Part shown: piece by piece, positions 1,641 through 28,517 of the stretch | How the letters are laid out: every line of letters starts with the position of its first letter | Numbering within the stretch: the stretch's first letter is position 1 | Origin: Sorex araneus | Lineage: Eukaryota > Chordata > Mammalia > Eulipotyphla > Soricidae | Direction of reading: 5' to 3' | NCBI RefSeq assembly: GCF_027595985.1 | Contig: NC_073304.1 | Location: forward strand, 219,178,000-219,241,999 | DNA length: 64,000 bases | Notes under the pieces: model-generated | The model's input: the letters and a program-made list of their open reading frames with translations, nothing else | Told to the model about the DNA's origin: nothing | Databases searched by the model: none | Translations under genes and position numbers: made by a program

Positions 1641-1772
1641 GCACTTCACCTTCAGCCCGGAGATAAGAATTGCCTGGTTGCCCGCTCCAAGTGCTTCCTG
1701 AAAATGGGGGAGTTGGAGAAGTCCCTGCAGGATGCTGAAGCTTCACTCCAGGATGACCCGAATTTCTGCAAG
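1641..1772 (+). CDS. ODAD4: ODAD4 coding exon (second in gene), first TPR
   Basis: Acceptor CAG ends at 1640 and donor GTGACC starts at 1773; 44 codons, phase 0 at both ends. It encodes the DKNCLVARSKCFLKMG-type TPR segment, matching human ODAD4 closely from residue 39. Confidence 0.95.
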
Positions 1773-4700
1773 GTGACCCTGCGGGCTGGAGGACCCGGGC
1801 TGTCCTGAGCACTTGGAATACAACCTCTTGTTGGTTGAAGATGTGGCTGAAGATGCTGCCAGACAGCTTCTCTTCCGCCCCTTCCAAGTTCCTAAAGGCC
1901 TTGACTTCCTCCCCTAGCAGGGAATATTTTTTGTTCGGGGGTGTGGGGGGGGGCACATCCAGCAGTGCTCAGGAGTGACCCTGTCACTGCACTCAAGAAC
2001 CACACCTGGTGGGCTCGGGGGACCATACAGGATGCTGGGGAATCGAACCTGATTGGCCAGGCTTGACCATGCAAGGCAAACACCCTACTCGCTGTACTAT
2101 CTCTCCGGCTCCATGGCAGGGAATTTTGCAAAAGGCCGAGACCCTGTACACCATGGGAGACTTTGAGTTTGCCCTGGTGTTCTATCATCGAGGCTACAAG
2201 CTGCGGCCTGACCGGGAATTCAAAGTTGGAATTCAGAAAGCCCAGGAAGCCATCAACAACTCAGTGGGAAGTGAGTGCCCTGGGGGGCCTTGCCAGTCTG
2301 GTCCAGGGAGGACGGTTGGAATCCTGAGTTTTGGAGGAAGGGCCTGCCAGGACAGTGTCTGGGCAAACTCTTCTGGGCCCGTGGGGAACCTCCTGCTTGC
2401 GCATTTCCGGGGACGGGGCGCTTGGAAGATGTCCTGGCTCCCTTTTGCTGAACCCTGCAGCCGCTGGATCTTCTTGGAACCCCAGGTCCGCAGTCAGAGA
2501 ACAGAGAGGAGTCCCAAACCTAGCCCTCCCTTGCCCTGGCTTCCACCTTGTCATCTTATGCTTGATCTGTCACCAAAGGAGGCCCTTCCCCAGCACCTCA
2601 GGGAAAGGGAAAGGGGAGCAGAGAGAGGTGCCAGAGCTTGCCCTGTGGGTGGCAGGGTGTGGAAATAGTGCAAGAGCATGATCTTTGGGTCTAGGACCTC
2701 CTCCCTCTGTTTGGAAATCCTCCTGCCTGCGGGCCTTGGGCTAGCGGGGGATGTCTACCTCTGAGGAGAGTGGCCCCCGACTGTTTATCATCAGCTGTTT
2801 CTCCATAAAAAGGAGTAAGAGGTCGCGCCCGGGGGCCTGGCAGCCCTGAGCTCTGGCTTCGGTCCTTGCAGGTCCTTCTTCGGTGAAACTGGTGAACAAA
2901 GGGGACCTCTCCTTCCTGAGTAAGCAAGCCGAGGTGAGGGTCCTGGTTCTGAAGTGAGGAGAGAGGCGCTCAGTTCTGGGGGGAACCTCTTTGCTGGAGC
3001 CTTGGGGGGGGGCAGCCGGGAACTCTGCCTCGACTTCACAGATGCCACGCGAGTGTCCTTGCTCTAGTGTGCCCAGCCTCTGGGACCCTGAAAGAGAATA
3101 GGGGTTGACGGGCTCAAGGGCTGAGGCCAGGACCCAGAGCTCCCCTCTGAGGCTTGGCCCATCTTGTGTTTTTTTTGTTGTTATTGTTGTTGCAGAGTCT
3201 GAAAGCCCAGCAGAAGCCTCAGCCCATGAGACAGATCCTCACCCTTCCCAAGAAGGAAACCAAGCGGAAGGGCTCGTTCAAGAGTGAGAAGATTGTCCGC
3301 CAGCTTCTGGGGGAGCTCTACGCGGACAAGGAGTACCTGGAGAAGCTTCTTTTGGATGAAGGTTTTCAGTCCTTTGTTCATCCCAGGGAACAAGGGGTGA
3401 AGGCTGTGGGCAGTGGGGAGAGGCCAAATGCCAGAGGCAGAGCCTGTGGTGTAATATCAGCTGACATGGCCCTCCAGGCGGGTTTAGAGAGGTGGAAACT
3501 GAGGCATACAGAGGTCAGGTAGGACATTTGTCTTGCAGTGTGGGTTCGATCTCCAGCACCCCATATAGTTCCCTGAGCACCACCAGGAGTGATTCCTGAG
3601 TGCAGAGCCAGGGGAAACCCCTGAGCATCACCAGGGGTGACCCAAAAGAAAAAAAAAAAAGAGGTCAGGTAACCACCTAACTCTGCAGCACTCAGATTTG
3701 AATATAGAACATTCATGGTCAGAGTTGTGAGCCCAGAGGGAATGCCCACACTGCAGGTGCCTTTTTCACCCTGGCCTCATAGGACCCTCAGGACATGGCC
3801 AGAGTGATAATACAGAGGGTTTGCCTTGCACGTGGCAGACCCAAGTTCGATCCCTGGCAGCCCCTATGATCCCCTGAGCACCACCAGGAGCAATACCTGA
3901 GTGCAGAGCCAGGGTTAACCACTGAGCAGCACTGGGTGTAACCCACCCCCCCAAAAAAAAAACCCTTGGGGGCTGCATCCTTTACAGGGACAAAAGAATC
4001 CATCTCAAGTGCTGGCAGGGGAATCCTAGGGCACCCATCCTGGAAGGTTCAGTGTTTTTGTTTAGTTTTTAGGCTACACCCAGCAGTGATCAGGGCTTAA
4101 TGTTCACTTTATGTTTAGGGATCACTCCTGGTGGAGCTCAGGGACCATATGGGATGCCGGGGATGGAAGCTGGGTTGACCGTGTGCCAAGCTAGCACCTG
4201 AACTCCTGTACTATCTCTCTGGCCTCCTAGAAGGTTCTGGAACTGCATCTGCTAAGCTCTCCTTTTATTTATTTATTTATTTATTTATTTGCTTTTTGAG
4301 TCACACCCGGCGATGCACAGGGGTTAGTCCTGGTTCTGCACTCAGGAATTACTCCTGGCGGTGCGGGGGGACCATATGGGATGCCGGGGATCGAACCCGG
4401 GTCGGCCGCGTGCGAGGCAAACGCCCTACCTGCTGTGCTATCGCTCCGGCCCCTGAGCTCTCCTTGTGTAGATCAGGAGCGAGAGATGCTGACTGGGCAG
4501 TTGTCCAAGGTGACAGGCGAGTTAGCAGTGAAGAGTGGCCACTAGAGCCAAGGCTCCTTACCTCCAACCTAGGGTCCAGCCCCCCCCAACCCCTCTGCAC
4601 CCCCATGGGACAATGACAGAACGAGACGAATGGACGGAGCCAGGAACAAATGTCTCCGTCAGCACGGGGGTGGGAGTACTGGCCTACTGCCGAGAACCAA

Positions 4701-7700
4701 GGGCGGAACAGCTCTTGAAGCTGAAGCCAGCGTCTTCCCTCCAGAACTCACGTTCCCCCACGTCACCGCGGCTCCCCTGCGGTGCTGTGCCATGGGGCAG
4801 CCTCCGTGTTGGCACACCTCACCCACAACAGGCCCGACTGCGTCTGGGGTGGGATGGGGTGGCCTCCGCATTGTCCCCGTGGCCCTGCTGCCACAGTGTC
4901 ACTTTGCCACCAGCTCTGACCTCTGGTCAGTCAGCCGGGCAGGGTTGGGGCACACACCCCTCCAGCCCACTTGGCACCTGGAGAGCCGCTTGGCACAGGC
5001 GACCTGGACCCGGTCATGCCTTGAGACTCGGTCGGGTCTGCAGCCACCCCTGAGGAGCGGGAGTCCCAGGGGCGGGGGACTTTCCCAGAAGCTGTCACCA
5101 GGGCCCACACCCCTCCTGCTAGCTCCTGGCGTGCCTGCTGCCAAGCTGGACCCTGTGTTCTCTGGCTGCCCTTGGGCCCGACAGGCCCCTGGCCCCTGGT
5201 CCCCGACAGGCGTGCTCTCAGTCCCCTGGCTGTTTCCACGAGTCCTGGTCAGGCTCTCTGCTTGGGGCTCCAGATCCAGGGACCCCCCCAACCCCCAAAC
5301 CCAGAGGGGCCGACTCCCCTGGGGCCAGCCCTAGCCGGTTCCTCTTCACACGCCCTTGCCCCAGACCTTATCAGAGGCACCATCAAGCAAGGCCTGACCG
5401 TGGAGGACCTTATCCTGACGGGCATCAACTACCTGGACACCCGCAGTAACTTCTGGAGGCAGCAGAAGCCCATCTACGCGCGGGAGCGGGACCGAGCACT
5501 GATGCAGGAGAAGTGGCTGCGGGACCGCAAGCGCCGGCCCTCGCAGACGGCTCGCTACATCCTCAAGAGCCTGGAGGACATCGACATGAGTGGGTGCCCT
5601 GCTGCGGGGGGAGGGGCTGGGCCTGGTGCTGGGCGGGGGCAGACTGGGCCCCTTGGCCCTGGGATGGTTGGGGCGGCAGCCACCCTCCCCTGCTCTCCCC
5701 AGTACACATTGCCTCAGGGCCAAAGCCATAGCACAGCGGGGAGGGCGTTTGCCTTGCACGCGACTGGCCTGGGTTTGATCCCCAGCATCCCATAGGGTCC
5801 CCCGAGCACCGCCAGGAGTTACCCCTTAGAGTCACTGGGCATGACCAAAAAGAAAAAAAAATGCACCCAGACCCCAAAACCGGACACTTGGCCTCTCCCC
5901 CTCCTAGTGCTGACCAGTGGCAGTGCTGAGGGGAGCCTTCAGAAAGCTGAGAAGGTGCTGAAGAAGGTTCTGGAATGGAACAAGGAGGAAGTGCCCAACA
6001 AGGACGAGCTGGTTGGAAATCTGTACAGCTGCATAGGCAATGCCCAGATCGAGCTGGGGCAGATGGCAGCCGCCCTGCAGAGCCACCGAAAGGACTTGGA
6101 GATCGCCAAGGAATAGTGAGTGCCAGTTCCCCGGCTTGCAGAGGCGCAGGGCTGGCAGGGCGGCTTGTGGCTGCGCTCCCACGTTCTGCTCCCGAGTCCA
6201 AGCGGGTTCCCTGTGGGCAGGGCCGCCTGCCTGCAGTCTGGGAAGGGGTAGACCTATGTGTGGTTTGCAGGGGGTCTCCGGGGCAACAGCCCCACAGTGC
6301 TCAGGAGACCAGCAGGATGAGGCCTTCTCTGTGCTTCGGTCCTCTGAGCCATCTCTCTAGCCCGTCTCTTTTTTTGGAGAGGAGGGTCACACCCAGCGAT
6401 GCTCAAGGTTACTCCTGGCTCTGCACTCAGGGATCACTCCTTGCAGTGCCCAGGGGACTGTATGGGATGCCGGGGATTAAACCCAAGTTGATGGTGTGCA
6501 AGGCAGGTGCCCTCCCCGCTTACTAGCTCTCCAGCCCCACAAATTAAAAAACAAATTTTTTTTTTTTTTTTTTTTTGCTTTTTGGGTCATACCTGGCATT
6601 GCACAGGGGTTACTCCTGGCTCGTGCACTCAGGAATGACTCCTGGCGGTGCTCAGGGGACCCTATGGGATGCTGGGGATCGAACCCGGGTTGGCCACATG
6701 CAAGGCAAAACGCCCTACCCGCTGTGCTATCATTCCAGCCCCCCAAAACAAAAAGTTTTTAAGGGGGAAAAATATTGTGGACTCAGGTCAGAACCCCAGG
6801 GCTTTGGATTGTACCATCTCCCCAGGCGTGGCCTCAGACAGGTCCCTCAACACTCCCTGGCCATTGGGCAGAAACTGCACCAGCCCAGCCCGAGAGGGTG
6901 GAGGGTGGAGGGACGGTACAGGGAGAGAAGGCGGCCGGGCGGCGGTGCAGCAGCCACCACGTGACAGGCACAGGACCCGGGTGCACACCTCACACTGAGC
7001 CCTGGTGGCCTTCTAGGTGATGGTCACGCCAGGGACCTTCAAAGTCCTTGGTGACTTCCTTGGCCCCGTTTCCACTTGGCCCACGGTGCTGGGCCTCTCC
7101 GAGTTTCCCATCCTCCCACTCCCCCTTGCAGCCAGACCTGGCTCCCCCTGCACTCACAAACCCCCTCTCCACCTCTCACCTCTCCTCCTGCTACTAGGCC
7201 TCACCCCTCCTCGTTGCCTGCTGGCTTGGAGCTAAGCCTGTGATGGGGCCTTGGGATGCTCTGCGCATACACCCCCACCCCAGCCCGGGCCTGGCCCCCC
7301 ACCCCAGAGGTCATACAGGTGTCCTGAGCTTTCTTGCCGCTCCGAGCCCTCCTGCCCCTCTAATGCTCCCTTCCCCGTTCCTTCTCACCCCTTCCTGCAT
7401 GCTGACAGCAGTGTCCTGTACATGCTGCCAGAGGAGAGAACAAGCAACACTTTGACCGCGCATGACACTGACCTGGGTTCAATCCTTGGCACCCCATATA
7501 GCACCCCGAGCCTGCCAGAAGTAATCCCTAAGCGCAGAGCTAGGATTAAGCCCTGAGCACAGCCGGGTATGACCCCCCCCCCAAAAAAAAGGAAAGAAAA
7601 GAAAACTGACAGCAACCGACCAAGCTGGCTTTGATCTGGGTCCTGGCACTCAGCTGCATGGATCTGATTCACCTTCATGGTTTCCTCATCTGCAACCAAG

Positions 7701-10700
7701 GCAGAGTACCAGTGAAATGGGTCTCTCCATAGTACCGCGGGGAGGGGGTTTACCTTGCACCTTGCTGACAAGGGGTTGATCCCCAGCCTCCCATGTGGTC
7801 TCCCAAGCACTGCCAGGAGTCGTTACTGAGTGTAAAGCCAGGAGTGAGCCCTGAGCACTGCCGAGTGTGGCCCCCCCAAGTAAGACAAAAACATCTCTCC
7901 AGTCCTGGGAACCACAAGCATCTCCGGGGGGGCCTAACCCTGAACTTCCCACCAGACCTACCTCCCTTGTCCCCCAGGGAGCCCTAATCTTAATCCGTCA
8001 CTCCTGCGTTTGACCCCACCAAGGCCCTCCACTACCGGGATCCCTCCCTGGCTAGGAGCCTTGGGCATGTACCAACTTGAGTGCAATACAGAGCCCCTCA
8101 TCTTCCCCGCCAAACCTCTTACCAACACACAATGGTGCCTACGTGGCTACGTGGTCCCCCGAGAGGAAGTCAGGGGACCTCAGCCACTCCCACTTTCCCT
8201 GCTCCCCAGAACCCCTTCCCACGCTTTGTCCTCCTCCAGCTCAGAGCAGACCGTCCTCCTCCTCCTCCTCGTCTGATTCCTCCGTGGATCCAGGTGAGCG
8301 ACAGACCCAGGCAGGCACCCCAGCCTGAGAGTTGGGTTTGGCCCAGCTTGGCTGTCCTTCCTGCCAGGGCCTGTCCTGGTCACTTTGCAGGCCCCAGGGC
8401 CCTGCGCTCCAGCCAGCCCCTGGTGGCTCTGTTCCTGCTAATCCCAGAGAGGCACTGGCCTGTCCTTTCTCACCAGCTCTTTCTTCATCAACCCCCTCGG
8501 GCCCACTGGCCCGGCCCGGCCTCTGAAATTTAAATAACTGTCTGATTCCAGAAAGCCTTCCCAGCCCCGGGTGGTGGTTTGGAAATCCAGCTTCCAGCTC
8601 CCGGCTGCCTCTCCACATTTTATCTTCTCCCTCTGCCCTGCAGGACTTGGCGCTTTGGAAGGGAACTTACTTGCCGCCCTTTCCCTTCGCAGCCACGGCG
8701 GCGGGCACTGTGGCAGGGAAGAGGTGTGGCAGCGACTGGGAAAGAGGGTTAGTTCTGTTAGTTCCCGTCAAACTGCACGTCAGGGGCTGGAGCGATAGCA
8801 CAGCGGGTAGGGCGTTTGCCTTGCACGCGGCCGACCCGGGTTCAAATCCCAGCATCCCATATGGTCCCCTGAGCACAGCCAGGGGTAATTCCTGAGTGCA
8901 GAGCCAGGAGTAACCCCTGTGCGTTGCCAGGTGTGACCCAAAAAGAAAAAAGAAAAAACTGCACGTCAGATAGGACAGTGGGCAGGGCACTTGCCTTGCA
9001 CGTGGCCGACCCCCCTGTGAGCCCCGGCACCACGTAAGGACTCCCAGTCCACCAGGAGTGATCTCTGAGCACAGCCAGGGATGAGCCCCCAAACAAAAAA
9101 GAAATCCCGCCTATGCAGCACCCTCAGTGGCCGCCCCCCACCCCCGCCCGTGCCCCTCTCCGGTGCCCTAGAACTGTCTTTCCAAAGTGGCCAGCCCCTG
9201 GGGCCACTGCAGTCGCCAGGGTGAAGGCCGCAGGGCTGCAGGGCTGCAGGGGTGGGGACTTTCTGCAATGCTCTACGGGGGTGAGGGATTGAGGGGTGGT
9301 GTCACTGATGTTTTTCTGAAAAGCAGGTGGTAGGACAAATGAGTTTGGAACCCTTGGTGACTTGATTGTGTGCTTCTGCATGACTTTTTTTGGCGGGGGG
9401 ATGGCGGGGGGGAGGGAAGCCTGGGAGACTTTGTTTCTGGAGTCATTCCGAGTGGTGACTTGGGGGCTACTCCTAGCACAGTGTCCAGGGGACCATGTGA
9501 TGTGGGGGGATCAAACTGGGTCTCCTGCAGGCAAAGCCTTTTAGCCTAACCTTTTTTTTTTTTTCTTTTTGGGTCACACCCGGCGATGCACAGGGTTTAT
9601 TCCTGGCTCTGCACTCAGGAATTACTCCTGGCGGTGCTCGGGGGACCATATGGGATACTGGGAATCGAACCCGGGTCGGCAGTGTGCAAGGCAAACACCC
9701 TACCCGCTGTGGTATCGCTCCAGCCCCTAGCCTAACCCTTTGAGCCATATCCTGGCCCCCAAGTGACTTATTTCTCATCAGATGTTGGCCTGAGTAATGG
9801 ATTCTAGTGGACCTAGTGGACGTGTCCACTCTGCACACTGGACAGAGCCTCTGCTCTGCCAGGTGCCCTGAGAGCACCAGAGCGATGGTACAGCAAGAAG
9901 GGCACTTGCCTTACATGCAGCCCACCTGGGTTCCACCGCCAGCATCCCATATGGCTCCCCAAGCACCTCCAGGAGTAATTCTGAGTGAAGAACCAGGAGT
10001 AACCCCTGAGCACTGCTGGCTGTGCCTCCCCCCACCAAAAAAAAAAAAAGAGAGAGAGAGAAAAAAAACAAACCCTCAGGGTCTCAGGTAGGAGCAGGGC
10101 TGTGGATGGGGCATAGACAAGGGCACCCAGAGAGCTGGCCGGGCTGAGGATTGGGGGTGTGCAGGATTGCAGCAGAGAAGGGCGGAGGGGAGGGGGTGGA
10201 CCTGTTGCCTCACGAAGGGGGTGTGGGTGGGGTGGGGAAGGGACCTGCTGGTGGGGGGTACCCAAGAATATTGAGCCCCAGAGCAGTGTTCTACTAGGGC
10301 CTGTGCATGCAGCAAACCGGAAACTCCTCCCGCTGCCCCGCGCCCGCCCCTGGGCATCTCCCTGGGGCCACGTCGCGAGGTGTCCTTCGGGTGCCCTTTC
10401 TGGCGTATTTGCCCACAGCTCCCGGGCACACAGACACACGTCCCCTTTGACGGACGGGCAGAAGCTGCCCGTGCTCAGAGGCCGCACCCGGGAAGGGAAG
10501 GCAAGGCCTGGCCGGGAGGCGTGGCCACAGGCCAGGCTCCGTAAGAAGTCCCCGAGGGCAGGAGCTTGGGTTGTTGCCGTCCGGCCCGGCGGGCACAGGG
10601 AGCCGTTGGCGTGGGAGCGCCCACTCGAGGCGGAGGGACGGGTGGCAGGCGCATGCAGGAAGGCCGCCGGGGTGGGAGCGGAGAGGTCCCCGCGGCTGCT

Positions 10701-13700
10701 GCAGAGGCGCGCGATCTGGGCTCCTCACTGCCGCCTGCTGGAGAGGGCTGAGACTGCGGGTGAGTGCTGGTTCCGGTTTGGTTGGCTGGGAAGAGAGAAA
10801 TCAGAATTTTTTAAATTTAATTTAATTTAATTTTTTTTTTGCTTTTTGGGTCACACCTGGTGATGCACAGGGATTACTCCTGGCTCTGCACTCAGGAATT
10901 ACTCCTGGCGGTGCTCAGGGGACCATATGGGATGATGGGGATCGAACCCGGGTCGGCCGCGTGCAAGGCAAACACCCTACCCGATGTGCTACCACTCCAG
11001 CCCCGAGAAATCAGAATTTTCATATGACCGCGGTTAAACATCAGATGCAGGCGCTGAGACCAGCACCATAGATGGTCTCCTGGGCATTGCCAGGAGTGAC
11101 CACTTAGAGTCACCAGGTGTAACCCTAAAATCCCCCCTAAAAATAAAAGAATGAAGGGCAGATGTCACGGGGAATGCCATTGGTTCTCTCTGGGTGGGAG
11201 GCAGGGCCATCCCCGGTGATGCTCAAGTGATTCCTGCCAGCGCTCTTTTTACTGATTTACTACTGGATTTTTTGGGTCTTTTTTTGGAAGGGGATGGTGG
11301 TTGGTTTGGGGGACACATTTGGTGGTGCTCAGGGCTTATCCCTGATACTGCATTCTGTGATCACTCCTGGCAGGGCTTAGGGGACCTTATGGGGTGCTGG
11401 GAATAAAACCCAGGTCGGCTGCATGCAGGACAAGCTCCACTGTACTATCTTTCCAGCCCCTAATTTGTTTTTTGAGGGGGAGTGAGGCACATCCAGGGGT
11501 ACTTAGGGGCGACTCCCACCTGGATGTTTATTCTTGCAGCGGCACCCAGGGGACCCTATGGTGCCAGGGCTGGGACCCGGTGCTCCTCCATGCAAAGCCT
11601 GCACTCTGGCCCTTGAGCCCGGGCCCGGGCCCCTAAGTGTGAGTGCGGCCACTGCCAAGTCAGTGTCCCGCTTCCTCCCCACAGTGACCTTCCTGATGCC
11701 AAGTCGAGAGCTCTTGACAACATCGGCAGGGTGTTTGCACGAGTTGGGAAATTCCAGCAGGCCATTGACACGTGAGTGACCAAGGATTGCTGCTTCCGCA
11801 CCCAGTGACGCCACCGAGCCTCAAACCGGATCCCCTTTTCCCACTGGGCAAAGGGGCACCTGAACGTGGCTGGTGTCACGTCTGCCAGGCAGCTGTGGTG
11901 GACAGGCCCCCTGGCCAACGCGGGGGCTCATCAGGACATCCCTGAGTTGACTAGAACCATATTTCTCTGTTGGCCGATGGTAAGACGATCCTGGTGGGCC
12001 TAGGAGACGGCACTCAAGTGGCAAGGTTTGGGGCTGGAGCGATAGTCCAGCGGGTAGGGCATTTGCCTTGCATGCAGCCGACCCGGGTTCAATTCCTGGC
12101 ATCCCATATAGTTCCCCCCGAACACTGCCAGGAGTAATTCCTGAGTGCAGAGCCAGGAGTAACCCCTGTGCATCACTGGGTGTGACCTACTGTCACTGTC
12201 ACTGTCATTGTCATCCCGTTGCTCATCGATTTGCTCGAGTGGGCACTAGTAACGTCTCCATGTGAGACTTGTTGTTACTGTTTTTGGCATATCGAATATG
12301 CCACGGGTAGCTTGCCAGGCTCTGCTATGTAGGTGAGATATTCTCGGTAGCTTGCCGGGCTCTCCAAGAGGGGCGGAGGAATCAAACCTGGGTCGGCCTT
12401 GTGCAAGGCGAACGTCCTACCCTCTGTGCTATCGCTTCTGCCCGGGTGTGACCCAAAAAGACAAAGATAAAAAACAAGTGGCAGGGGCCGGAGCGATAGC
12501 ACAGCGGGTAGGGCGTTTGCCTTGCACGCGGCCAACCCTGGTTCGATCCCTGGCATCCCATATGGTCCCCCAAGCACCGCCAGGAGTAATTCCTGAGTGC
12601 AAAGCCAGGAGTAACCCCTGAGCATCGCTGGGTGTGACCCAAAAAACAAAAAACAAACAAACAAACAAACAAACAAGTGGCAGGGGGGCTGGAGCCATAG
12701 CACAGCGGGTAGGGCGTTTGCCTTGCACACGGCCGACCCGGGTTCGAATCCCAGCATCCCATATGGTCTCCTGAGCACTGCCAGGAGTAATTCCTGAGTG
12801 CAGAACCAGGAGTAACCCCTGTGCATTGCCAGGTGTGACCCAAAAAGGAAAAAAAAAAAGTGGCAGGGTTTGGCCTTTGACACCATACAGCCCGCTGAGC
12901 ACCAGGTGGCCCCAAAACCTTCCCAGTGCTGGGGGGCCCTTCTAAGTTACAGAAGAAAGCGCCCCCCTCCCAGAGCATGTGAGAGCTAGATGATTACGAG
13001 CGGTCCCCTACTTGCCGCCCCCAGGCTGACACTGAAGGACTGGGCTGAAGCTCAACTGTCCTACTCTGACAGACTCCCATGGCCCCTGCTTCTGTGACAA
13101 CATGGTTTGATTCTCAGCGGGTGACTCAGCCCCAGAGACTGGAGGGAGCACCAGAACCAGACCCCCTGAGCTTTGAGTCCTCAGGCCTGTCTCTCGACTA
13201 GAAGAGCCACATTCACGGCAGGCACCAGGGGCTGAGCGGCAGAAACAAGGAGAATGCATCCGTCCCCTTGTATTGTTGTTGTTATTATAATTATTGTTGT
13301 TGTTGTTGTTGTTGGTTTGGGAGCCAGACCTAGAGGTGCTCAGGGATCTCTCCTGGAGGACTCATGCGTCCATATGGGATGCTGGGAACCAAATCTGGGA
13401 CGGCAGTGTGCAAGGCAAACACCTTGCCCACTCTACTATCTTTTAGGCCCCTGTTGAATCTTTTAAATGTTAATTGAAGTGTTATTTTATAAATATTACC
13501 TTCAACTTTTTTTTTTCTTTTTGGGTCACACCTGGCAATGCACAGGGGTCACTCCTGGCTCTGCACTCAGGAATTACTGCTGGCCATGCTCAGAGAACCA
13601 TATGGGATGCTGGGAATTGAACCCGGGTCGGCCTCGTGCAAGGCAAACACCCTACCCGCTGTGCTATCGCTCCAGCCCCGGAGGAACAATTTTTCTTGGG

Positions 13701-14300
13701 CCTCCCAGCAGAGAGCCTTGGCCTCAGGGGGGCTGAGATCTAGGCTGAATTCCTGAGCCTGGTTCACTGTGTCCCCAGATGGGAGGAGAAGATCCCTCTG
13801 GCCAAGACCACCCTGGAGAAGACCTGGCTCTTCCACGAGATTGGGCGCTGCTACTTGGAGCTGGACCAGGCCTGGCAGGCGCAGAACTATGGCGAGAAGT
13901 CCCAGCAGTGCGCCGAGGAAGAAGGGGACATTGAGTGGCAGCTGAACGCCAGCGTGCTGGTGGCCCAGGCCCAAGGTAGGGGCTCAGGGAGGCCCAGCTG
14001 CACCCAGGGCCAGGCTGGAGCCTGCTCGAAGGGGCTCTGAGGAGGCAGATGCCTCCATCTGCACAGCCAGGTACAGCGTCGGGCCAAGGGCAGGGCAAGC
14101 CAGTCAGGAGGGCTTTCCTTGCGATCTTGGGGGTGGGAGGGGCACACCCAGGGGTGCTCCAGGGTTATTCCCTATGACTCTGGGGGCCGGCGGTGGACTG
14201 AACCAGGGTCTGCTGCATGTAATACAAGTGCCTCATCACCCTTCCTATCCGTCCAGCTCAAAGTCATAGATTCCCCAAATCACTGAGGGCTTCAGCCAGG

Positions 14301-14333
<33 letters not shown>

Positions 14334-17300
14334 TTTTGGTTTTTGGGTCACACCTGGCGATGCACAGGGGTTACTCCTGGCTCTGCACTCAGGAATTACT
14401 CCTGGCGGTGCTCAGGGGACCATATGGGATGCTGGGATTTGAACCCGGGTTGGCCACATGCAAGGCAAACGCCCTACCCACTATGCTATCACTCCAGCCC
14501 CCAGCCTTTTCTTAAACTCCGACCCATACTCAGGGGGGCCATTGTACAAGCTCACTGGGGACAAGACGTACCCCTCAGGGTGGTGGTTATCCTGAGCCCA
14601 AGCCCGAGGGCTTCTGGGGTCTGGGTGGGGCCTGGAGAACCGGGATTTAGGCGGAACAGTTGCAAAGCGGCAGCCTGGGAGGCGCCGTATACTGGGAGGA
14701 AGGAGGCAGGGCCTGGAGGAACTTGGGTTCTGCACCCTCAGGCCCAGGGGCCTCTGGCAAGAGCGACTCGGGGCCTCAGTTTCCTCCTCTCTGCATCTAT
14801 CTACCACATGGGGTGCTGTGTGGTGTGAGATAGGGGAACCTTAACCACAGAAACACTCAGGGCTGAAGAGAGAGCACTTCTTGCCTGAAGTGGCCAATCT
14901 GGGTTCAATCCCTGGCATCCCATAGGGTCCCTGAGCCCTGCCAGGAGAAGCCCTGAGCACCATCAGTGTGACCCAAAAACAACAAGAGTGCTGGAGCAAT
15001 AGCACAGTGGGTGGGACTTTTGCCTTGCACGTGGCCAACCTGGGTTCGATTCCCAGCATCCCAAAGGGTCCCCTGAGCACCGCCAGGAGTAGTTCCTGAG
15101 TGCAGAGCCAGGAGTAACTCCTGTGCATCGCCGGGTGTGACACAAAAAGAAACAATGACAGCAACAAGAAAAACCCAACACAAAAGAACAGGAACTGGCG
15201 GGTCTAAGAGTGTGGCTTGGTTGATAGTGATCCCTTCCTTCCCCTCTTAGAGCTTGCCCTGGCCCCACATGAAGTTTGTGTTTGGGGTTTGGCTTTGGGG
15301 CCACACCCAGTGGTGCTCAGGACTTAGTCCTGGCTCTGTGCTCAGCAATCACCCCTGGCAGAGCTCAGGGGACCATATCGGGTGCAGGGAATTGAACCCC
15401 GGTTGGCAACATGTAAAGCAAGCACCTTCCCTCTCTGTATTATCTCTGCAGCTGCGTAAGTCACACATTTTAAAAGGGTGACAATCTATTGCTCACTCCA
15501 CTTCCGGTTCAGCCTTAACTGTCAGTTGGGTGAAGGCACTGAGCTGCCTCTTCTCGGGGTTTCCTGTACAAGGGAAGCTTCTAGCCACTGGAGCACAATA
15601 TTTCATGGATGTGTGTGTGGGGGAGGGGCAGGAGAAATAGTATAGCAGGAGGGCACTTGCCTTGCAGGAGGCCAACCCAGGTTCGACCTCCAACCCAGCA
15701 TCCCTTGGGGTCTCCAAGTGCCGAGCCAGGAGCAACCCCTTAGTTGCCGGGTTGTGGCCCCCAAACAAAACAAAACAATTTTTAAAACTTGATTTCCATG
15801 GTGTTGTTTCAAAAAAGAAATAATCAGGGGCCCTTGGGGAGTAGTTCAGGGGGCAGGGCATTTGCCTTGGCTGATCTGGGTTTGATCCCCAGCATCCTAT
15901 AAGGCCCCCTGAACACAGCCAGGCGTGATTCCTGAGAAGATCCCAGGAATAAGCCCTGATCACTGGCAGACATGGCCCCAAAAATAACAACAACAACAAA
16001 AAAACAAAACAGAATTACCCCCTGGGGGCAGGTGGGCCAGAGGCGAGACTCAGGGTCCCTTCCAGGAGCGGCCCTTTCACGTCGTTTCTGAAATTCTGAG
16101 TTCACATTCAGAAGAAGAGGGCTATTTCCTTTCCGGAAAGTCAAAGCTGGAGGAGTTGTCACCTAGCCCGGAGACGGTGGCCGCCGCGTCCCTGACCCCT
16201 AGCCCGCCCCCTCGCTCAGCGCCGCCGTCAGGGTGGAGGGGGTGCTGGGCGCCAGGGCTGCGGCCTCCTGCCCACTGCAGGGCCCAGCTCCCGCCCAGCA
16301 CCCCCGCGGTCCCCTGTCTCCCCACCTTCCAGTGAAGCTCAAAGACTTCGAGTCAGCTGTCAACAACTTCGAGAAGGCCCTGGAGCGAGCCAAGCTGGTG
16401 CACAACAACGAGGCGCAGCAGGCCATCATCAGCGTGAGCCCCTCGGCACCCGCCCACCGCGCGCCCACTCCCCACGGGGCAGGTCCTTCCCGATGCCCAG
16501 CAAGCGCTTCTGCAGGGAGGAACCAAACCCCCAGCACTGGCAGAAGGAGGCAGAGCCTCCCGGAGCCGCCTGCAGCACCTCTCCCCTGCACCCACCCCGC
16601 GCTTCCCAGCTGTTCTGTTGTGGGTGGGGCCCGGCTGAGTTGATTTTTGGACTAGCCCCATGGAAACCCCCGGCTCCGGGAGACAGCAGTTTAACTGTCC
16701 TGGCTTCTGAGCAACCCTGGGACAACCTTCCTGCTTTTTCCTGCCTGTGAGATTGCTTTGGGGGCCTCTCCACACTTCCCACCACTACCACTCATGCATG
16801 CACGCACACACGCACACATATATGCCTACGCATGCACACACACATACCCATATATTGCAGACACATGCATGCACGCATGCACAAATGCACACACATGCCT
16901 ATGCATGCACACATATACCCATACATTGCAGACATACACACACATGCACACACACGCGCACACACATGCATACACATGCGTATGCACACACATGCCCATA
17001 TAGTGCAGACACTCATGCACACACATGCTTACTTACACACATACCCACATATTGCAGGCACACATGCACATACAAACACACATTTATGCTCTCATACACG
17101 CACACTTACAAACACACACATACTCCTCCTTCTTTCTGAACAGGCTTCCACATGCCTCTTAGCATGGGCTGTTCTCTATGCCTGACATGTTCCAAACCCT
17201 CCACTCTTACCCCCTGCCCAGTTACTGCCCACTCCTACCTCTTGGCCTGGGCATGTGCATATGTGTCCCCTGCTCCACTGTCCAGCATGTCCTGTCAAGG

Positions 17301-20219
17301 CCCAGGACACTTTGTGCAAACGGTCCAGGCAACCGAGAGCTGGGCCGGGAAGCCCCGCGCTGCCTTTCCTTCCCCAAGGCTCACTGCACTGCTGGACCCC
17401 TGCAGGCGGACGTGTCCTTGAGGGTTGGCATAAGCCCTGGCCCCCAGTTCCTGGTCCCTGCAGCCACCCCAGCTCTGTCCCTTGGAGTTCACTGGGGTGG
17501 AGCCCCCAGAATTTGCACAGGGTCCCTGTCCCCAGGAGTCTGGGCCAGGGCTGTGGGGTCTCACTGCAGAGTCACAAATCCTACAGACCCCCTGAGACAG
17601 CGCAGGACCTGGAAAGGGATGCTAAAGGGTAGGGTAACAGTGGGTAGGGGTGCAGAGGGGCTGCCAGGCCCAGGAGAGCCCAGGCCTGTGTCTGGGGGTC
17701 CAGCCTGGGAGCGGGCATGAGCCCTGACCCCCTTGAGGTTTTAGGGTGCGAGCCTGTAGTTTAGTGGGTCCCAGGGAAGCCCCACGTTCCTGTAGAACAG
17801 TGAAGTTGCTCTCAGGACACCCAGAACCTAGCACTTCTTTATCCACTGAGGGGTTAGCCCCCCTCCCCGCAGCCCTGTTCCCCTGCTCCTGGGTGCCAGG
17901 TCAGACCCCCACAGTTGCCCTGCCTGGGATCACCCCCTGCTCCTGTGAAGGATGTGCAGCTGCAATCTGGCACCACCCGTGGTGTCTGCACAGCCATCTG
18001 GCAGCTCGGAGCTGGAGTCTCGCCCTGGCGGGTGTGGGCCCCCCCAGTGTCTCTGGGGTCCCAGGGCTGGGATGGCATGTCCAGCAGCATGCATGCAGGT
18101 GTGGATGGGCCAGACCAACTCTGCCCAAGGCACACGGGCCATGGGTCGTTCAGTCCACATTTCCAGGGTGCCGGGTCTTGTGAGAAGGCTCTTCTGGGGT
18201 GCCTCTCGGAGTCCCCAGTCCTGTCCCTGCCTTGCTGCCCTGCTACATGCCTGCAGCCTCCAACTTTGCACGGGCTGAAGCCCAGAGCGGCTGGCGATGA
18301 GAAAACGGAAATCGGGGGGTAGCACTCAAGCACAGGTCTGCCCCAGGCCAGAGGTGGCCCTCTGGCAGGGATCCCATGCCCAGGCTGGGGGTGACCCCAA
18401 GTCCAGAAGCCTAATGAGCCTCCGGGTAGAGGTCTCGGGGCGCTGGCACACAGGTCAGTGCCAGGCGGACTCACGGCTCCCTTCCCACCCACAGGCCTTG
18501 GATGATGCCAACAAGGGCATTGTAGAAGGGCTGAAGAGAAACAGTTTCCGGGGGAGTTTCTTCGAGAAGAAAGGTGAGCCTGGACACCCCAGCTGTCCAC
18601 ACCTCCTGTGCGAGCAGGGGGGACCCCACCTGCACGGGGACCCAACTGTGCTGCTGAGCCCCTGGCCCCTCCTGTTCCCAAATCTCCTGCCCCCTGCCCC
18701 CTCTCCTGCTCCCATCCCCCATCTCCTGTTCTCTGTCCTCCTCCTCCTGTCCCCACTTCTCCTGTCCCCCTTCTCCCATCTCCTGTCCTCCCACCCTCCC
18801 TTATTCTGTCCCCCACCCGCTCCATTCCCCTCATCTCCTGTCTCCACTGTCCCCGTCCCTCCATTCCCAGTGTCCCCACGCCTCCTGCATGCTCTGCTAT
18901 CCCCCTCGCCCCCGCACTTCTCCATCCTGGTCTAGGGAAGGCCCAGTGGGCGGCAGCTGCCAGCACTTCCCTCCCAGAACAGCAGGTGGCAGCATTGCCC
19001 CAGCTCCACAAAGCGACCTTTTCCGGCTGGGAACTCGAGAGCCCCGAGGACTCCAGGAGACCAGTGGCATGTGGGCAGAGAATACGGGGCAGACTCGGTG
19101 CCTTTTCCCTGTCACTGCTGAGTACAAGGAGCAAGGATCCCGCTGGCTGTGAAACTGTCCTCCAGCTCAGCTACCTGCTAGCAGGCCACTGGCGTTTGGG
19201 TCGGGACCTGTCTAGCCGCAGAGGGAGGCCCCTGGAGAGAAGCAGCCCTGGCTCGTGCCCGAGAGGCTGGCGGCCTGGGCCCTTATTTCTTTGCAGAATG
19301 ACTTTCGCGTGTGACGTTTCCTCAGTTCCCAGGTCCCTTGCCTGCACACTCAGTGACACTGTGCAGTTTCATGAGAATCCACTGATGGAATCCTCCTGCC
19401 TGTGTGCATGTATGCGCGCGGCGTGTATGTGCGTGTGTGTGCTTGTGTGCACGTGTGTGCGTGTGTTTGAACTTTTTCTTTTTTGCGGTGTTTTGGGGTA
19501 ACACCCGCCTGTGCTGCAGGAACTACTCCTGGTTGTACGTGCTCCGGGGCTGCTACTGGTAGTGGTGGTTGGGGGGGACCCAAGGGTGCCAGGGATGGAA
19601 CCTGGACTTCCTGCAAAACATGTGTGCGACCCGCTCTGGGGTCTCTCCTTTTGGAAGGGGGATGCAGTGTCTCATCGGCACACAGAGCCAACACGCTTTT
19701 CTTCCCGCACTCACCCGCTTCTCAGAAGAGGAGGAGGATCTGCAAGGGAAGAAAAGCAGTAGGAGGCAGAAGATGCAGCCTGAGAAGGCGGGGAGCCACT
19801 GGGAGCAAGAGCACGGGAGTGACAGGGGCCTAGACGCGGACTCATCCCAGGAAAAGGTGCACAAGAGGGTGAGCAGGACGGGGGAGAGCAGCGAGCGGGA
19901 GGATTCGGAGAGCGGCAGCTCTTCCCAGACAATCGAGCCGAAGGACTCAGAAGATGTGGCGGGGGGGAGAGCAGCACAAGACCAAAGAACACGGAAAGAA
20001 GCAGGCAAGAGAAGAATACAAGTGGCCAAAGCAGAACTGAGGGAGATCTACAGGCGGCCCTCCGAGCTGGACCAGGCCCTCTCAGGGTCAAGCCTGAGGG
20101 ACTCCGAAGAGCTAGAGGGAAAATATTCAGAAATCTTCCAGAGAGACTTGGGAGAGCCGAGGAACGCAGATTCGAGAGACCTGAAATACACAAGGCGTGC
20201 CAAGAAGGAAGGTGAATGA
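1641..20219 (+). CDS. ODAD4: ODAD4 (TTC25), outer dynein arm docking complex subunit 4, 5'-incomplete
   Basis: ODAD4 is a TPR protein of motile cilia that helps dock outer dynein arms on the axonemal doublets; human loss causes primary ciliary dyskinesia (family knowledge). Coding exons seen here: 1641-1772, 2120-2270, 2872-2933, 3196-3361, 5365-5589, 5908-6115, 11685-11771, 13779-13975, 16333-16433, 18495-18573 and 19726-20219. They total 1902 nt with every phase matching, giving 633 residues plus stop. Adding the roughly 38 residues of the human first exon gives 671, against 672 in human as I recall it. TPR-like helices fall at about residues 39-115 and 300-480. The last 160 residues are charged and Ser/Glu/Arg-rich. 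The first exon with the start codon is not found in 1-1640 and must lie upstream of the window. Oddities are a SINE-duplicated acceptor before 2120 and a weak donor at 3362. Confidence 0.95.
1927..2112 (-). mobile_element. SOR-type SINE abutting an ODAD4 splice acceptor
   Basis: Antisense copy whose head end lies about 7 bp from the acceptor at 2119. The target duplication GCAGGGAAT occurs at 1917-1925 and 2116-2124. Confidence 0.9.
2120..2270 (+). CDS. ODAD4: ODAD4 coding exon, second TPR
   Basis: It starts GGA ATT TTG (GILQKAETLYTMGDFEF) after CAG at 2117-2119; donor GTGAGT at 2271; 50 codons plus one base. An antisense SINE ends only about 7 bp before the acceptor, and the acceptor itself is part of the SINE target-site duplication (copies at 1917-1925 and 2116-2124). 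Confidence 0.94.
2872..2933 (+). CDS. ODAD4: ODAD4 coding exon, linker
   Basis: 62 bp between CAG at 2869-2871 and GTGAGG at 2934. It completes a split Ser and encodes PSSVKLVNKGDLSFLSKQAE, collinear with the human linker after the second TPR. Confidence 0.93.
3196..3361 (+). CDS. ODAD4: ODAD4 coding exon, Lys-rich linker
   Basis: It starts at AGT CTG AAA after a GTT-rich tract and CAG at 3193-3195, and encodes SLKAQQKPQPMRQI through LGELYADKEYLEKLLLDE. Conservation and phase (ends in G, next exon supplies AC for Asp) force the donor GTTTTC at 3362, which is a poor match to GTRAGT. Confidence 0.9.
3483..3712 (-). mobile_element. MIR-like relic split by a SINE
   Basis: GGTGGAAACTGAGGCATACA and GAGGTCAGGTAACCACCTAA joined across the SINE read like the antisense MIR core (GGAAACTGAGGCACAGAGAG then GGTTAAGTAAC). 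The younger SINE at 3522-3660 divides it. Confidence 0.5.
3522..3660 (+). mobile_element. SOR-type SINE, head-truncated
   Basis: Starts within the tRNA head; 11-bp target duplication at 3511-3521 and 3661-3671 despite the truncation. Confidence 0.88.
3793..3963 (+). mobile_element. SOR-type SINE
   Basis: Head at 3797, box B aagttcgatccc and poly(A) after a C run. Confidence 0.88.
4060..4228 (-). mobile_element. SOR-type SINE, diverged
   Basis: Antisense body and head (ctatctctctggcc) with many substitutions. Confidence 0.8.
4265..4455 (-). mobile_element. SOR-type SINE, full length
   Basis: Antisense, (TTTA)n tail. Target duplication AGCTCTCCTT at 4255-4264 and 4456-4465. Confidence 0.94.
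5365..5589 (+). CDS. ODAD4: ODAD4 coding exon, conserved middle region
   Basis: 225 bp, acceptor CCCCAG, donor GTGGGT at 5590. It encodes LIRGTIKQGLTVEDLIL, then GINYLDTRSNFWRQQKPIYA and the RKRRPSQTARYILKSLEDID segment, strongly conserved with human. Confidence 0.95.
5714..5861 (+). mobile_element. SOR-type SINE, short
   Basis: Sense copy with a small internal deletion; ends 46 bp before the ODAD4 exon at 5908. Confidence 0.9.
5908..6115 (+). CDS. ODAD4: ODAD4 coding exon, TPR
   Basis: Acceptor TAG at 5905-5907, donor GTGAGT at 6116; 208 bp. It encodes LTSGSAEGSLQKAEKVLKKV and the TPR GNLYSCIGNAQIELGQM, ending inside a Tyr codon (TA plus T). The junction reads Met-Met-Leu where human has Met-Leu-Leu. 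Confidence 0.95.
6365..6538 (-). mobile_element. SOR-type SINE
   Basis: Antisense, diverged head ctagctctccagcccc. Confidence 0.88.
6555..6741 (-). mobile_element. SOR-type SINE, full length
   Basis: Antisense copy with a T18-long tail, tandem after the previous SINE. Confidence 0.93.
7440..7592 (+). mobile_element. SOR-type SINE, head-truncated
   Basis: Begins in the anticodon-like region; box B ggttcaatccttgg is mutated. Confidence 0.82.
7725..7885 (+). mobile_element. SOR-type SINE, diverged
   Basis: Sense head and body with gtggccccccc end. Confidence 0.82.
8784..8956 (+). mobile_element. SOR-type SINE, full length
   Basis: Target duplication of 14 bp at 8770-8783 and 8957-8970; young-looking head. 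Confidence 0.95.
8971..9107 (+). mobile_element. SOR-type SINE, partial
   Basis: Degenerate sense copy directly downstream of the previous element; box B lost. Confidence 0.75.
9385..9541 (-). mobile_element. SOR-type SINE, very degenerate
   Basis: Antisense body landmarks only; the next SINE inserted at its head end. Confidence 0.6.
9552..9727 (-). mobile_element. SOR-type SINE, full length
   Basis: Target duplication TAGCCTAACC at 9542-9551 and 9728-9737. Confidence 0.94.
9878..10066 (+). mobile_element. SOR-type SINE
   Basis: Sense copy with A13 and GA tail. Confidence 0.88.
10330..10759 (+). promoter_or_regulatory. Intronic CpG-rich patch in ODAD4 with splice donor at its edge
   Basis: Dense CpGs (CGCGCC, GTCGCG, GGCCCGGCGG, AGGCGCGCGA) unlike the flanking intron, preceded by a G-run block at 10184-10258 and ended by a canonical GTGAGT at 10760. 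It could be an alternative first exon or CpG-island enhancer; no coding similarity is seen. Confidence 0.4.
10811..11004 (-). mobile_element. SOR-type SINE, full length
   Basis: 16-bp target duplication at 10795-10810 and 11005-11020; TTTAA-rich tail. Confidence 0.95.
11052..11140 (+). mobile_element. SOR-type SINE, 3' part
   Basis: Only the body and tail are left. Confidence 0.6.
11277..11458 (-). mobile_element. SOR-type SINE, diverged
   Basis: Antisense; head ctatctttccagcccc. Confidence 0.82.
11465..11635 (-). mobile_element. SOR-type SINE, degenerate
   Basis: Antisense; ends 50 bp before the ODAD4 exon at 11685. Confidence 0.65.
11685..11771 (+). CDS. ODAD4: ODAD4 coding exon, TPR
   Basis: 87 bp, acceptor CACAG, donor GTGAGT at 11772. 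It encodes DLPDAKSRALDNIGRVFARV and GKFQQAID, a TPR helix pair. It follows a 5.6 kb SINE-filled intron. Confidence 0.95.
12026..12475 (+). mobile_element. SOR-type SINE interrupted by second-family SINE
   Basis: Sense head and body to 12187, tail resumes at 12444. Its target duplicate AAGTGGCA lies at 12016 and 12476. Confidence 0.9.
12188..12443 (-). mobile_element. Second SINE family (tRNA head, CTGTCA tail), full copy
   Basis: Minus-strand reading: tRNA-like head (GAAGCGATAGCACAGAGGG and box B), then an unrelated body (GGAGAGCCCGGCAAGCTACC, GGCATATTCGATATGCC, GAGCAAATCGATGAGCAACG) and a (TGACAG)n tail. It is inserted in the tail of another SINE with a 10-bp duplication GGGTGTGACC at 12178 and 12444. 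Confidence 0.8.
12486..12674 (+). mobile_element. SOR-type SINE, full length
   Basis: Sense, (CAAA)n tail. Flanked by AAGTGGCAGG at 12476-12485 and 12675-12684. Confidence 0.95.
12685..12857 (+). mobile_element. SOR-type SINE, full length
   Basis: Third copy at the same target; flanks AAGTGGCAGG at 12675-12684 and 12858-12867. Confidence 0.95.
13310..13451 (-). mobile_element. SOR-type SINE, diverged
   Basis: Antisense, preceded by a (GTT)n tail at 13274-13312. Confidence 0.8.
13508..13679 (-). mobile_element. SOR-type SINE, full length
   Basis: Antisense, well conserved; 99 bp before the ODAD4 exon at 13779. Confidence 0.94.
13779..13975 (+). CDS. ODAD4: ODAD4 coding exon, TPR
   Basis: 197 bp, acceptor CCCCAG, donor GTAGGG at 13976. 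It encodes WEEKIPLAKTTLEKTWLFHE, then GRCYLELDQAWQAQNYGEKS and ends NASVLVAQAQ: two TPR-type helical pairs identical or nearly so to human. Confidence 0.95.
14129..14262 (-). mobile_element. SOR-type SINE, degenerate
   Basis: Antisense body with head remnant atccgtccagctc. Confidence 0.65.
14315..14501 (-). mobile_element. SOR-type SINE, full length
   Basis: Antisense, TTTTC tail. Near-duplicate AGGCTTTTCTT and AGCCTTTTCTT flank it. Confidence 0.92.
14862..14982 (+). mobile_element. SOR-type SINE, shortened
   Basis: Sense copy with an internal deletion of the body. Confidence 0.78.
14988..15158 (+). mobile_element. SOR-type SINE
   Basis: Sense, full body; tandem with the previous copy. Confidence 0.92.
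15282..15453 (-). mobile_element. SOR-type SINE, diverged
   Basis: Antisense copy with ccacacccagtggtgctcag start. Confidence 0.82.
15625..15777 (+). mobile_element. SOR-type SINE, diverged
   Basis: Sense; box B ggttcgacctcc, body partly deleted. Confidence 0.8.
15828..16007 (+). mobile_element. SOR-type SINE, diverged
   Basis: Sense; (AAC)n tail. Confidence 0.8.
16333..16433 (+). CDS. ODAD4: ODAD4 coding exon, last TPR
   Basis: 101 bp between TTCCAG and GTGAGC at 16434. It encodes KLKDFESAVNNFEKALERAK and VHNNEAQQAIIS, the final TPR of the repeat array, and ends in phase 0. Confidence 0.95.
16788..17122. repeat. CA-rich minisatellite with TTGCAGACA core
   Basis: Alternating CA/TG/CG dinucleotides carry four copies of a CCCATATATTGCAGACA-like core at about 16847, 16917, 16994 and 17045. 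Confidence 0.8.
18495..18573 (+). CDS. ODAD4: ODAD4 coding exon, start of variable tail
   Basis: 79 bp, acceptor CCACAG, donor GTGAGC at 18574. It encodes ALDDANKGIVEGLKRNSF and then a stretch ending FFEKK that diverges from human. A 250-bp C/T-rich tract begins soon after the donor. Confidence 0.88.
18650..18912. repeat. C/T-rich tract with CTCCTGTCCCC units
   Basis: Nearly pure pyrimidine, irregular CTCCTGT(C)n units. It lies in ODAD4 intron just after the exon ending 18573 and creates a long spurious minus-strand frame. Confidence 0.8.
19402..19468. repeat. (GT/GC)n repeat
   Basis: Imperfect GTGTGCGTGTGT series in the last ODAD4 intron. Confidence 0.8.
19470..19650 (-). mobile_element. 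SOR-type SINE, very degenerate
   Basis: Antisense landmarks only; ends 75 bp before the last ODAD4 exon. Confidence 0.5.
19726..20219 (+). CDS. ODAD4: ODAD4 terminal coding exon
   Basis: Acceptor TCTCAG ends at 19725; stop TGA at 20217-20219. It encodes a charged tail with an EEEEDLQGKK start, Ser/Glu runs, and an EIYRRPSELDQALSG motif that matches the human tail, which anchors the frame. Most of the rest is poorly conserved. Reading frame and total length (671 predicted) support it as the true last exon. Confidence 0.9.

Positions 20220-22252: not shown

Positions 22253-28517
<6,265 letters not shown>

Follow-up and report, generated by a model that had tools for sequence, protein, structure and literature searches.

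The ODAD4 exons and the inserted SINE

The window, i.e. the whole 64-kb stretch of shrew DNA that was analysed, contains the ODAD4 gene from exon 2 onwards, while exon 1 was found upstream, in L033. Exons 2 and 3 and all features of the intron between them lie on the plus strand, apart from a SINE on the minus strand. Exon 2 (1641-1772) has a length of 132 nt, ends in ...FCK and is followed by the donor AAG|gtgacc; it was delimited by its junctions, its translation and the alignment to ODAD4 chains. Exon 3 (2120-2270) is 151 nt long and encodes GILQK...NSVG, which is identical to the ODAD4 chains 7rro_I1 and 9cpc_1C in 50 of 50 residues and to 8j07_m9 in 49 of 50. The joined exons align to the same three chains over query residues 1-93, with E-values from 4.8e-56 to 8.8e-54.

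The junction from 1772 to 2120 gives the conserved ODAD4 sequence FCK|GILQK. It was also returned, with no alternative, by a junction resolver that searched only near the exon and was guided by a human ODAD4 sequence (44 of 49 residues identical). The upstream acceptor discussed below lay outside this search range and was tested by translation. In the preliminary description the donor had been placed at 1773. The intron does begin there (GT at 1773-1774), but the last base of the upstream exon is 1772. The donor of intron 2 is off consensus (AAG|gtgacc, 1770-1778), and both ends of the intron look weak. According to the part of PMC12468610 considered here, human ODAD4 exon 2 is 132 nt long and holds Lys82. 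As the exon that precedes the insertion in the shrew has the same 132 nt and Lys82 as its last residue, the two shrew exons fit exons 2 and 3 of that numbering.

Ten ODAD4 exons, joined from 1641 to 18573 (the last exon not included), form a single frame without a stop. The features of an ODAD4 orthologue are present: the tested frame is intact and the TPR exons are conserved. In the 2.4-Gb genome, exons 2 and 3 have one genomic match each at E <= 0.001 and no other copy. A processed ODAD4 copy, as a fossil record of splicing, was likewise sought through the whole genome, and no retrocopy was found at E <= 0.001. A long GA-rich simple repeat occupies positions 841-1012 of the window, in ODAD4 intron 1.

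The antisense SINE between the two exons (1926-2112, minus strand) consists of the remains of a T-tail with a G-rich stretch (1926-1951), a body (1952-2110) and a head that extends to about 2112. A profile derived from the copies within the window matches it from 2110 to 1952 at 2.1e-32 and gives 109 hits in the 64 kb. By this profile match and by genome-wide matches, the element belongs to the repeat family that fills the window and the genome; among the other genome matches listed, 26 of 39 end at 2112-2114, where the SINE head ends. The family is taken by us to be the SOR SINE of shrews, and the element in ODAD4 is probably one of its copies. The cited part of PMC11240701 mentions a Sor SINE found in the genome of Sorex araneus.

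The ODAD4 SINE is 15.2% diverged from the window consensus (rank 41 of 69; median 13.2%). In a whole-genome search with this element, the matches listed were the element itself and 39 others at 76-81% identity (40 of 2621 candidates scored), whereas the same search with a young copy from the window listed that copy and 39 others at 96-99% (40 of 1437 scored); with 40 candidates scored each, these figures are a comparison and not a census. Judged by the 15.2% divergence and by the lower identity of the matches listed, the insertion is old. At an assumed rate of a few substitutions per billion years per site, a divergence of 10-15% would correspond to some tens of millions of years. The tail has decayed to a short T run and the G-rich stretch, with no long T tract.

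All AGs within the SINE score -1.8 bits or less with the acceptor matrix described below. Its eight GTs (at 1932-2093) are all weak or frame-breaking, and the element forms no new intron with a donor of its own. In-frame exonization by means of a donor inside the SINE was considered and rejected: two GTs that would preserve the frame, at 1932 (12 nt) and 1974 (54 nt), are weak, and use of the best GT, at 2008, would give an out-of-frame exon of 88 nt.

Two copies of one acceptor

As had been reported in the preliminary description, the SINE is flanked by GCAGGGAAT at 1917-1925 and at 2116-2124, both copies being read directly from the sequence. The pair forms the core of a 17-nt imperfect repeat detected by a repeat finder (1912-1928 vs 2111-2127, 82% identical, spacing 199). 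An exact flanking repeat of at least 9 nt is found in 26 of the 63 near-full-length SINEs of the window (low-complexity matches excluded). When the flanks were swapped between SINEs, a repeat of this length appeared in 61 of 3906 pairs (1.6%), and the flanks of the ODAD4 SINE paired with those of other SINEs gave at most 8 nt in 124 pairings. This flank-swap test rules out a chance repeat in place of a target-site duplication. A second 17-nt repeat (1889-1905 vs 2126-2142, 76%) is out of register and was taken as chance.

The duplication does include the CAG acceptor and the first exon bases, as had been claimed: four intron and at least five exon bases lie within GCAGGGAAT. Since at least five exon bases are duplicated, the insertion point of the SINE lies inside ODAD4 exon 3, and since the acceptor was copied along with the duplication, the SINE became the end of the intron. 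The two acceptors share their last four intron and first five exon bases and are 199 nt apart, but their surroundings differ. The upstream duplication copy (1917-1925) overlaps the ancestral tandem acceptor TAG|CAG (1915-1920). The downstream copy (2116-2124), with its CAG at 2117-2119 directly before exon 3, contains one AG and is not tandem.

The origin of the sequence in front of each acceptor could also be confirmed. The upstream copy retains the ancestral pyrimidine tract, as ttgacttcctccccta lies in the intron before the duplication, within the ancestral part of intron 2 (1773-1916; sequence and acceptor scores). At the exon-linked copy, by comparison, the SINE head supplies the tract, as it does any branch point located up to 45 nt away. 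The stretch needed for both (2075-2115) is composed of the SINE head plus ATG. Translation further bore out that splicing to 1921 adds 199 nt, shifts the frame and reaches an in-frame TGA at 2050-2052.

The strength of the acceptors was assessed by a weight matrix derived from 49 acceptors, which belong to seven genes within or next to the window. The set comprised 50 acceptors (48 obtained by script and 2 by hand, including ODAD4 2872), from which the site under study was subtracted; 6 exon pairs had been left out, and the one re-added by hand was that of ODAD4 2872. The matrix separates real acceptors from other AGs with an AUC of 0.98, and it ignores enhancers, silencers and exon definition, so that it cannot predict a ratio. 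The upstream CAG|GGA scores 8.0 bits (15 of the 49 real acceptors are lower) and the adjoining TAG 7.4 bits (14 of 49 lower). For the downstream acceptor, 2.6 bits were obtained, with 1 or 2 of the 49 lower, depending on rounding. With the 22 window acceptors alone, the values are 9.8 bits upstream (14 of 22 lower) and 4.4 bits downstream (3 of 22 lower).

Resolved by position, 3.9 bits of the 5.4-bit gap come from an A at -7 and 2.1 bits from GG at -13/-12, both in the downstream site. Purines at -18/-17 in the upstream site compensate for part of this, and a purine at -5 is present in both. As the difference leans on few bases, mostly on the A at -7, it is fragile. The pyrimidine content at -20 to -5 is 13 of 16 upstream and 12 of 16 downstream. 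The scoring of branch points in both tracts, which had been proposed earlier, was carried out with assumed weights and gave 5.08 upstream vs 1.66 downstream. The upstream value exceeds that of 40 of the 49 real ones, but the match is only 17 nt from the exon; 3 of the 49 lie below the downstream value.

The nearest AG before the downstream acceptor is 44 nt upstream of it, and a G-rich stretch follows the upstream acceptor; neither feature enters the matrix, nor does the length of the exon. Three other AGs score well: the one at 1888 (8.3 bits) outranks the ancestral acceptor, and those at 1897 (5.6 bits) and 1840 (4.0 bits) outrank the downstream one. Because both sites are outscored by other AGs, the matrix alone cannot pick the site in use. 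Splicing to the AG at 1888 would keep the frame in length, but a stop is met, and this candidate was discarded.

Selection on either acceptor is unsupported by these scores. After 8-15% of neutral change, 40-52% of simulated acceptors score as high as the upstream one, so that neutral decay alone would leave that share as strong and selection for its retention need not be invoked. As for an improvement of the SINE head by selection, 64 heads of the window were joined to the same exon edge for comparison; the 2.6 bits of the ODAD4 head rank fifth (tied with the fourth), and the best reaches 4.8 bits.

Predicted use of the two acceptors

In the absence of constraint, 8.5, 12.7 and 15.9 amino-acid changes would be expected in exon 3 at divergences of 8, 12 and 15%, and the chance of zero changes would be 2e-4 or less; the exon is identical to 7rro_I1 throughout. 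Skipping of exon 3 would break the frame, given its 151 nt. As the exon has stayed conserved since an old insertion, its skipping is frame-breaking and no second copy was found in the genome, the SINE-side acceptor appears to be productive. Over most of the period that followed the insertion it has presumably yielded functional mRNA, and a pure loss of ODAD4 function is very unlikely.

The features of the locus would be best explained by the following course of events. A SOR SINE would have inserted long ago, in antisense orientation, a few bases into ODAD4 exon 3. The target-site duplication would have spanned the intron-exon border, thereby placing an acceptor on both sides of the SINE. The acceptor copy joined to the exon would have kept the coding frame, with the antisense SINE head providing a tract and a branch region that are weak but sufficient. 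The junction from 1772 to 2120 would yield functional ODAD4 mRNA, and the SINE would be removed within the intron. The ancestral acceptor at 1920, intact and the stronger one by its score, would still receive a share of the transcripts. The resulting long form, extended by 199 nt and carrying the TGA at 2050-2052, would be destroyed by nonsense-mediated decay. Both the use of each acceptor and the decay of the long form are what we infer from the duplication, the scores and the conservation. The model predicts an empty site with a single CAG|GGAATTTT junction in outgroups, and an insertion common to close Sorex species.

The preliminary description had offered two outcomes: either the gene switched its functional acceptor onto the SINE, or it makes a mix of functional and nonsense transcripts. 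What stands is that the SINE-side acceptor must work, as exon 3 is conserved. A clean switch is disfavoured, given that the ancestral acceptor is intact and lies about 5.4 bits higher, 3.9 of which come from one base. We consider it fairly probable that both sites are used, the weak SINE-side acceptor giving rise to functional mRNA and the ancestral one to some nonsense mRNA. The main rival is an almost exclusive use of the SINE-side acceptor, with the ancestral site silenced by exon definition, the G-rich stretch or other signals. The conserved exon 3 and the open tested frame fit this, the tract content of the two sites is alike (12 vs 13 of 16 pyrimidines) and the downstream AG is 44 nt away from the preceding one. 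An exon of 151 nt has the usual size and may suit exon definition better than one of 350 nt, and the G-rich stretch behind the upstream acceptor could serve as an intronic signal; either would favour the downstream site. Because the score gap depends largely on a single base, the joint use of both sites was weighed lower and the switch higher than the gap itself would suggest. The upstream site nevertheless retains its AG, its tract and its branch-point match, and at about 5.4 bits above its competitor its complete silencing is possible but rather unlikely.

The opposite extreme, in which nearly all transcripts pass through the ancestral acceptor and are nonsense, would leave the shrew with very little ODAD4. 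It is in line with the acceptor and branch-point scores, which both favour the upstream site, but exon 3 shows no amino-acid change from 7rro_I1 despite the old insertion. Loss of ODAD4 in people leads to primary ciliary dyskinesia. The human founder mutation c.245delA is located near the same exon end and causes exon 2 skipping (PMC12468610, in the part considered). Canonical splicing was at 3% in one of the patients described there, and cilia were static in patient cultures, though the disease was milder in some. By analogy with these data, the shrew would probably be harmed if the downstream site were used very little, and the near-exclusive use of the ancestral acceptor is accordingly given little credence. 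An alternative exon 3 was present in 6% of that patient's transcripts and in a healthy control too (PMC12468610, same part), so that exon 3 may vary in humans as well.

As a single assembly was examined, the structure could in principle be a rare or recent allele or an assembly error, uninformative on the species. A recent allele is hard to reconcile with a SINE that is 15.2% diverged and that, unlike the young copy, has no near-identical sister among the 40 candidates scored. An assembly error, for its part, is hardly expected to produce a diverged SINE with its own duplication, and this explanation is the least probable of all. Returning to the joint use of both acceptors, it may be speculated that the duplicated acceptor is a built-in poison site, in which the level of ODAD4 is set, and perhaps adjusted from tissue to tissue, by the ratio between the acceptors, with both copies under selection in the shrews that share the insertion. 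We hold this extension to be a long shot.

Related systems and other SINEs near acceptors

In the literature searched, as far as the cited parts of it go, the merle SINE of the dog and the introners are the nearest systems. By analogy, the merle SINE of PMEL (SILV) is a close precedent: it is tRNA-derived, antisense and located at an intron-exon border, as in the ODAD4 case (PMC7349775, PMC6091007). Its 15-bp target-site duplication lies at the 5' end of PMEL exon 11 and includes the original acceptor (PMC7349775); the ODAD4 duplication likewise contains its acceptor. Two acceptors compete in merle (PMC7349775, PMC6091007), whereas a competition in ODAD4 is read from sequence scores. The competitors themselves are distinct. 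In merle it is a cryptic acceptor inside the SINE, which keeps the frame and acts in a length-dependent manner (PMC7349775, PMC6091007); in ODAD4 it is the ancestral acceptor upstream of the SINE, the use of which breaks the frame. Furthermore, the merle SINE has a long T tract and marks a pigment variant in dogs, while the ODAD4 SINE is old and its T tract has decayed.

Splicing is also altered by SINEs near the acceptor in dog HCRTR2 (narcolepsy) and FAM161A (retinal atrophy), the latter insertion resulting in exon skipping, according to the part of PMC3976383 considered. These two elements are intronic (35 bp and 15-16 bp upstream, respectively) and linked to disease, whereas the ODAD4 SINE entered the exon. 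For introners, the cited part of PMC9860276 describes how the duplication supplies a splice site, so that an insertion into an exon can be spliced out. Introners are, however, new introns, while in ODAD4 the insertion lengthened an intron already present, without adding a donor. The same part of that study reports no evidence for introners in mammals. Exonized antisense SINEs (Alu and others), as described in the literature considered, bring a tract together with acceptor-like sequence. In contrast to these, the ODAD4 SINE is predicted to be absent from the normal mRNA and to contribute no more than its head, as the intron's 3' end. Unlike the precedents, as far as their cited descriptions go, the ODAD4 insertion is old, it concerns a gene for a conserved protein and both acceptor copies have been kept.

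The ODAD4 locus represents a natural experiment on acceptor choice in a gene of primary ciliary dyskinesia. It illustrates how an element that enters coding sequence can be tolerated if its target-site duplication covers the splice site, and how a gene may persist over long periods with a weak acceptor to which a mobile element contributes.

Up to 110 nt upstream of the 50 acceptors, 7 antisense and 2 sense SINEs were counted, with the ODAD4 case included; up to 200 nt, the numbers are 9 and 6. In this genome, branch regions may occasionally be provided by SINE heads. Antisense SINEs end 29 nt upstream of the real acceptor at 39198 (DNAJC7) and 38 nt upstream of the one at 28068 (CNP). Likewise, antisense SINEs end 70 nt upstream of the acceptor at 11685 (ODAD4) and 49 nt upstream of one STAT5B acceptor (L011-L030), both of them without the first ~20 bases of the head. 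At 12188-12440 of the window, another repeat (tactgtcactgtcactgtcattgtcatcccg...) is apparently nested in a SOR SINE near its tail.
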